Assembly (NCBI RefSeq): GCF_036208045.1
Contig: NZ_CP121472.1
Span: 2,367,531 to 2,431,530 of the forward strand
Reading direction: 5' to 3'
DNA: 64,000 bases
Source: Thiorhodovibrio winogradskyi
Lineage (GTDB): Bacteria; Pseudomonadota; Gammaproteobacteria; Chromatiales; Chromatiaceae
Shown: positions 33,045-33,597 of the stretch, one piece after another
Position numbering within the stretch: position 1 is the stretch's first letter
Layout: every line of letters starts with the position of its first letter
Translations under genes and position numbers: made by a program
The notes under the pieces: generated by a model
The model's database searches: none
The model's input: the letters and a program-made list of their open reading frames with translations, nothing else
Told to the model about the DNA's origin: nothing

Positions 33045-33320
33045 ATGGGTTTTGAATGGAATCCCTAAAAAGCTGAGAATAATAACAGAAAACATGGTGT
33101 TTTCTTTGAAGAGGCAACTTCTGTATTCGGAGATTCCCTGTCTGTGACGTATCCCGATCCTAAACACTCAATAGATGAAGAGCGTTTTGTAATAATTGGG
33201 CTTTCCGATAAACAGAGGATTCTGGTTATTTCTCACCTGCATCACGGTAAAACCGTAAGAATCATCAGCGCTAGACTCGCAACAAAACGGGAGCGGCGAT
33301 TTTATGAGCATGGAAATTGA
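33045..33320 (+). pseudogene. brnT: BrnT-family toxin with premature stop
   Basis: The frame from ATG 33045 reads MGFEWNP, then TAA at 33066-33068, then [20 protein letters not shown] and continues as a full BrnT ([52 protein letters not shown]) to TGA at 33318. BrnT is a RelE-fold ribonuclease toxin. The stop replaces what is usually a lysine codon (AAA to TAA) at codon 8. No in-frame start follows before the core, so the toxin should not be made. The rest of the frame is intact, so the mutation is recent. Confidence 0.8.
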
Positions 33321-33531
33321 TAACGAATTAAGCGACGAACTTGAAGATGAATATGATTTTGTCAAAATGAAAGATGGTGTTCGCGGTAAATATGCCAAGC
33401 AATATCACGAGGGTGTGAAACTTATTATGCTTGAGCCTGATGTGGCAAAGATATTTCCTGACGCAAAGTCTGTCAACGAGGCGTTAAGGACTTTGACAAG
33501 GATTATTCAGCAACACGGAAAAGCAGCCTAA
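33304..33531 (+). CDS. Antitoxin partner of BrnT
   Basis: 75 residues. It overlaps the end of the BrnT frame. The core [18 protein letters not shown], followed by [20 protein letters not shown], matches a small antitoxin family whose C-terminal half is a ribbon-helix-helix. It appears intact. The stop codon TAA is part of the attC-like box GCCTAAC at 33526-33532, exactly the arrangement seen in compact integron cassettes. Confidence 0.75.
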
Positions 33532-33597
33532 CGAGTTGCTTCAGCCGAAGCCGGCTTCGCTATCGCTCAACCGGCTCGGCTGAACATGGCGTCAGCT
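33526..33597 (+). repeat. attC-like integron recombination site 2
   Basis: Box GCCTAAC at 33526 is followed by arms TTCAGCCGAAGCCGG and CCGGCTCGGCTGAA. They pair perfectly except for a single unpaired base, like the extrahelical base that sets strand choice in attC sites. The 3' box GTCAGCT (33591-33597) differs from GTTRRRY. This is the best hairpin of the three. Confidence 0.75.

Follow-up and report, generated by a model that had tools for sequence, protein, structure and literature searches.

The window, by which we mean the whole stretch of 64,000 nucleotides of Thiorhodovibrio winogradskyi that was analysed, contains in this order a remnant of an integron integrase gene (intI), a remnant of an IS91-like element with an attC-like site (attC0), a cassette of a DUF433 and a DUF5615 gene, attC1, a cassette of brnT and a putative antitoxin gene, attC2 and a truncated PIN cassette (Table 1). 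Loci and genomes used for comparison are designated by L and G numbers, respectively.

Table 1. Features of the cassette locus (positions within the window)
Feature	Position	Strand	Remarks
intI C-terminal remnant	31305-31514	-	PF00589 4e-20
IS91-like (Y2) transposase C-terminal remnant	31505-31867	+	PF04986 5.4e-14
attC0, attC-like hairpin ending the IS91-like remnant	32145-32238	+	R'' GTCCAAC 32145-32151; R' 32226-32238, expanded T run
Upstream cassette, DUF433 and DUF5615 (PIN-like) genes	32274-32830	+	PF04255 8e-25, PF18480 6.8e-30
attC1	32953-33025	+	73 nt; R'' GCCTAAC; R' GTTTAGGC 33018-33025, one extra T
brnT-putative antitoxin cassette (crossover convention G^TT...)	33019-33591	+	edges from homologous loci
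brnT toxin gene, broken	33045-33320	+	in-frame TAA 33066-33068, eighth codon
Putative antitoxin ORF, 75 aa, open	33304-33531	+	stop TAA inside R'' of attC2
attC2	33526-33597	+	72 nt; R'' GCCTAAC 33526-33532, R' GTCAGCT 33591-33597
Next cassette, PIN-type toxin gene	33592-33923	+	frameshifts and stops, cut at 33923; similar to G001

A complete integron has an intact intI beside its array; here only a C-terminal remnant is present. Positions 233-315 of the 315 positions of TIGR02249 are aligned at 31311-31562, with one TGA inside, and the DNA shares ~80-90% identity with the intI genes at seven further loci of the genus, the similarity ending at ~31503-31514. On its other side, 31505-31709 shows 78-80% DNA identity to an IS91-like element in L071, L072, L075 and L082, whose copies lie near integrases or attCs. 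The IS91-like remnant is fused to the intI remnant by a deletion with its junction at ~31505-31515. The hairpin of attC0 (-25 kcal/mol) resembles the end of other IS91-like copies and is found with 86% identity over 127 nt in the congener G002. The DUF433 and DUF5615 genes form a toxin-antitoxin-like pair. attC1 scores 71 bits with the covariance model R1 described below; its fold is no better than that of shuffled sequences (z ~0), which marks the site as structurally decayed and counts against the cassette reading. Two full-length integron integrases (TIGR02249 above cut-off) with attCs nearby are encoded elsewhere in the same genome, at 5320942-5321883 and 1987596-1988537. The six above-cut-off intI matches of the genus, including L071:1937-3367 on the minus strand, lie in open frames of 472-477 aa, and in the copy tested the integrase domains are found from residue 161 on, pointing to a long N-terminal extension.

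The toxin gene of the brnT cassette is broken early in its frame. Its match to PF04365 (1.8e-12) lies at 33144-33317 and covers profile positions 31-77 only; read from the GTG at 33144, the open part is without the N-terminal third. Open copies of brnT are present in L120-L123, and by eye the toxin start is absent in five of the 18 close relatives (L125, L127, L130, L131, L132). In L125, a locus of Ca. Thiosymbion, another small gene apparently took the place of the front of brnT upstream of position 3001, and the 75-aa gene is preceded by the brnT tail alone.

The 75-aa gene had been predicted to encode the BrnT antitoxin. An open frame beside brnT is indeed present, and its designation as antitoxin is by position: the protein matches no family in Pfam (E 0.1), NCBIfam or PADLOC, and the best Pfam hits of 18 aligned members of its family are to unrelated families (E 0.033). 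Pfam includes a BrnA model. BrnT being incomplete and its partner lacking a BrnA family match, the two genes do not qualify as a BrnT-BrnA pair, and we infer an antitoxin from gene order. Searching solved structures with a profile yielded no convincing match (best E 0.1), and the predicted fold of the protein was poor (mean pLDDT 54.8) and was not used. The plasmid search returned one distant match (51% identity); phages and viral contigs gave none.

The stop codon of this gene, 33529-33531, lies inside the R'' box of attC2, exactly as proposed, and the box satisfies the RYYYAAC consensus. R' is one invariant letter off GTTRRRY (GTC for GTT). Since the same next cassette starts with GTTAGCT in the congener G001, as compared to GTCAGCT at attC2, we regard this R' as a decayed member by descent. 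R'' and R' pair at four of seven positions, or at five with G-T pairs allowed; this and the GTC in place of GTT count against the cassette reading. The heptamer GCCTAAC alone means little, because the window has three copies of it on the plus strand and two of its reverse complement; the structured site of 72 nt exceeds chance. The bottom strand of 33526-33597 folds with -19.8 kcal/mol (DNA parameters; z -3.5, one of 200 shuffles equally good) and the top strand with -17.2 kcal/mol. The bottom strand would be the one that folds and recombines. In its minimum-energy fold a six-pair R stem is followed by a 3/3 spacer and an L stem, with two single-base bulges on the R''-L'' arm, so that the layout of an attC (bottom-strand hairpin, R box, unpaired spacer, L box, extrahelical bases) is present. 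The original prediction had expected a fold with one extrahelical base. The fold itself held up, being better than nearly all shuffles; the bulge count did not, as there are two and not one. According to the accessible part of PMC2727003, two to three extrahelical bases are usual in attCs, and the fold layout found here is the one described there. Rfam gave no match within the window, and the 72-nt site has no match in plasmids.

Blast of three sites against genomic stretches and an alignment of 29 rows show attC2 to be a member of a 72-nt attC family of the genus. With the structure assigned by hand, 91% of 752 cells pair; with the partners displaced by 1 to 3 columns, 18-40% do. Eight of the 26 pairs show change on both sides. 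The bulge bases are T in 25/29 rows at one position and G in 24/29 at the other; attC2 has T and A. The covariance model R1 was built from the 29 sites, and attC2 reaches 86 bits with it as part of the training set. In three genomes of the genus R1 finds 34, 36 and 21 matches (E 0.001; both strands of a site counted). From this list, strong and weak matches included, 70 distinct attC-like places were drawn, which lie behind different ORFs. A lone attC of the same family is located at 42253-42326 of the window (70 bits; R'' GCCAATC, R' GTTCGGT).

The edges of the cassette were examined in other genomes. In the genome collection 22 relatives of the 75-aa protein are present, those most similar to it in bins or genomes of Thiomargarita, Chromatiaceae (L121), Anaerolineae, Dichelobacter, Ca. 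Thiosymbion (L127), Thioploca, Parabeggiatoa and several methanotrophs, some of these labels perhaps being misbinned. Distant relatives (32 of 369 genomes) were compared for gene ends only. The right edge was profiled over the window and L120-L127, nine loci in all. Depending on the block, mean pairwise DNA identity amounts to 0.63-0.86 over the final 60 coding bases; it is 1.0 at TAAC, ~0.5 over the 8 bases that follow and then 0.26-0.33. At the left edge, profiled over five loci, the stretch 60 to 27 bases ahead of the BrnT start has an identity of 0.29. Over a GTTATGC-like box the value is 0.77, and it is again 0.77 between this box and the start codon. Similarity of homologues continuing past the boundaries would speak against a cassette; it was looked for and not seen, similarity being lost at the boxes on both sides. 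Both congeners lack the 75-aa gene (E 1e-15). The PIN cassette is present in G001 at 1348602-1348937 (312/336 nt identical), where its gene is open (153 aa). Similarity between the window and G001 begins at the C-G-T of the R' box, and in front of it G001 has a different gene and a different 86-nt attC, the bottom strand of which folds better than 200/200 shuffles. What is found is a discrete unit with edges at the crossover points and other neighbours elsewhere. The extent first given to it, 33026-33597, was right in so far as the cassette is real and has definable edges; the crossover convention places these at 33019 and 33591. A complete attC behind the homologues is clear in few loci, which counts against the cassette reading.

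We conclude that the locus is a cassette in a relic sedentary chromosomal integron, and assign this reading a probability of about 0.87. The cassette is decayed and belongs to an already known kind. This reading follows from the fold and family of the attC, the intI remnant at the locus and the two full-length integrases elsewhere in the genome; from the edges of the gene at boxes in other genomes and the PIN cassette behind another attC in a congener; and from the absence of the 75-aa gene in both congeners together with the broken BrnT frame. As in sedentary chromosomal integrons and CALINs (attC clusters without an integrase), one attC family extends over arrays and lone sites, cassettes encode toxin-antitoxin systems and the integrase is located elsewhere in the genome. 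Unlike in these, there are only three attC-like sites, and what is left of intI is its C-terminus, joined to an IS91-like remnant. The accessible part of PMC8876359 names brnT-brnA cassettes of chromosomal integrons. Like them, the present cassette has a gene for a BrnT-family toxin with a small partner gene behind it; it differs from them in that the partner is without a Pfam match and the toxin is broken.

On a working platform, IntI would have mobilised the cassette by binding to the attC as a folded bottom strand, presumably with cuts at G^TT in the R' boxes. The stop codon of the 75-aa gene would lie in R'' because one of the three frames of GCCTAAC contains a stop and the frame of this gene enters it, so that a conserved Ala-stop gene end has its letters in common with the RYYYAAC box. 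Today a move would require the integrase of either other integron to act in trans, and the site offered to it has a damaged R'. Because movement needs a trans-acting integrase and the R' of attC2 is damaged, the cassette is probably nearly immobile. With its toxin lost, the putative antitoxin persists as an orphan. A mobile cassette had been announced at this place. The attC and the cassette are real; what had been overlooked is that the toxin is broken, R' degenerate, the local integrase missing and the next cassette broken as well.

Is a stop codon within the R'' box of special meaning? Stop codons are often found within the first box of cassettes, and the original prediction took the compact junction of gene and attC, with the stop in the box, as a hallmark of mobile cassettes. 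At the 70 sites of the genus, the longest same-strand ORF ends inside R'' in eight cases. A stop triplet is present in R'' at 63 of the 70, and, with any ORF counted, one of at least 50 aa ends there in 10/63, as compared to 76/830 for stop triplets further upstream (Fisher p 0.12; with a minimum ORF of 60 and 70 aa, p 0.03 and 0.04, respectively). The overlap of stop and R'' is at most weakly enriched, and the hallmark does not stand. A general rule of stop codons built into attC boxes was likewise dropped after this 70-site test. In the same genome, a cassette with a HicB-like antitoxin gene (L071:8833-9108) ends in -AA, with its stop TGA inside R'' (GCCTGAC).

The simplest account of the junction is chance: any ORF that enters GCCTAAC in the right frame stops there, and the overlap is without meaning. 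The genus rate, weakly above that of other stop triplets, fits this account, as does the other BrnT cassette of the same genome, whose stop lies 59 bases before its attC. Against it, GC[C/A]TAAC is found at the stop in eight of 18 close relatives (L120-L127), which are not mutually independent, and what lies behind the stop in these eight is an attC, the start of R''-L'' or, in L124, unclear sequence. We hold chance to be evenly poised between true and false.

The relatives raise another possibility, namely that the junction of stop and R'' is an exchange point, at which a gene that changes host has its attC swapped for one of another type. Exchange could take either of two routes, gene conversion between attCs or an IntI crossover at R'' immediately behind the stop (RYYYAA^C), and it would leave the protein unharmed because the stop codon lies in the box. 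Precedents are found in the accessible parts of three papers: an attI that replaces an attC at R'' just past the stop codon (PMC12901181), a VCR lacking extrahelical bases, for whose top strand the recombination point is moved to R'' (PMC2727003) and a proposed gene conversion of attCs (PMC1382264). Evidence for exchange comes from the gene ends. GCCTAAC or GCATAAC is common to all nine loci of the right-edge profile, and different DNA lies behind it in L120-L127. This includes L121, the nearest relative of the window in a tree of 20 rows (86% identity in the gene, support 97/98), with quite different DNA behind TAAC. The tree comprised the window and 19 loci, these being the 22 loci without L134, L139, L140 and L141, to which a locus of G021 was added; L134 was left out as its neighbourhood nearly matches that of L133. 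The deep branches of this tree are without resolution, which weakens the case for exchange.

Complete attCs behind the gene were sought in the window and 19 of the 22 loci (L120-L138), with 300 shuffles each. Only the window and L120 beat all 300, and this too counts against exchange. A complete attC is also supported at L126 (four of 300 shuffles as good), so that another attC is clear behind the gene in two other genomes; for L124 (15) and L122 (53) the support is weak. For L121, L123, L125 and L127 a complete attC is not supported (106 to 235 of 300), and at most the start of R''-L'' is present. The distribution of the site types was compared over 13 genomes. The attC of L120 has two matches in its own genome, itself included, and four in that of L123; partial or weak matches are found in the genomes of L125 and L126 (two each), and none in the other nine, among them the genome of the window. 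Conversely, R1 finds matches in 10/13 genomes, 34 in that of the window and 1 to 25 in the other nine, those in the genome of L121 reaching up to 100 bits, and has none in the genomes of L120, L123 and L129. The L120 gene thus carries a site type foreign to the genome of the window, which speaks for exchange. The weak and partial matches of the L120 site in the genomes of L125 and L126 and the presence of R1 in 10/13 indicate that the types are not cleanly host-bound and argue against it, as does the partial likeness of L'' between types (identity ~0.5), which would also fit a fast divergence of one attC. Altogether we consider exchange possible, if somewhat unlikely. That the junction of this particular lineage is a repeated exchange point, at which a gene ending in Ala-stop (GCCTAA, GCATAA) swaps its attC with the protein unchanged, seems to us a shade more doubtful.

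Gene end and cassette start box were also compared within each locus. In L121 and L123 the last codon is GCA and the start box GTTATGC, a match of 7/7; the window matches at 7/7 apart from one extra T, L120 at 6/7 and L122 at 5/7. Six of the seven loci in methanotroph bins (L130, L132-L137) keep GCC-TAA, and these seven showed no attC in the shuffle test. As GTTAGGC is located upstream of brnT in L133 and L134, the sequence suggests that these two methanotroph copies may be former cassettes. The idea that the methanotroph copies represent a pre-cassette state was weakened by the GTTAGGC upstream of brnT in L133, and the tree cannot decide.

That attC2 is a Rho-independent terminator or another hairpin, and not an attC, is highly improbable: a GC-rich hairpin does lie directly behind the stop codon, but no T run follows it, its layout of R, spacer, L and bulges is common to the 29 aligned sites, the 70 places in three genus genomes lie behind different ORFs, and full-length integrases are present.

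As a relic of a sedentary chromosomal integron the locus adds, as found, one more decayed cassette, and what deserves testing is the exchange of attCs. Its lineage amounts to a natural experiment in which one gene, in several hosts, is joined at the same letter to different DNA, in some cases to different attCs. It thereby supplies a concrete junction for the question of how cassettes arise, for which there is no reliable model according to the accessible text of PMC4792948 and which is termed largely unknown in that of PMC5371416. If exchange were true, it would be a route that keeps attCs alike within a species, and one that turns an ordinary gene ending in GCCTAAC into a cassette, a process that the literature calls unsolved. 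The delta-attI cassettes of PMC12901181 are similar, as far as the accessible text goes, in that a different sequence is joined at R'' just past the stop codon. They differ in being resistance cassettes with attI in place of attC; in the present case the DNA that follows the gene varies from host to host, as judged by sequence comparison. Our literature search, mostly of papers outside subscription, yielded no description of a single gene whose stop codon is joined to attCs of several types.

Other elements are associated with attCs in these genomes. At L127 the same GTTAGTGCGCC junction is seen by eye as at group II introns of G001, here without an Rfam match. In G001 itself, two group II intron matches (L085:8016-8299 and 10414-10697; RF02005, 74 bits each) lie directly behind attCs. 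An IS91-like element at L071:3598 to ~6040, to be compared with 31505-32238 of the window, encodes a tyrosine recombinase and a Y2 transposase. In L071 and L075 the element ends in an attC-like hairpin (GTCCAAC ... GTTAGAT or GTTGGAT), and similar ends are present in L081, L082 and the window. An IS91-like element with such an attC-like end may move as a cassette.
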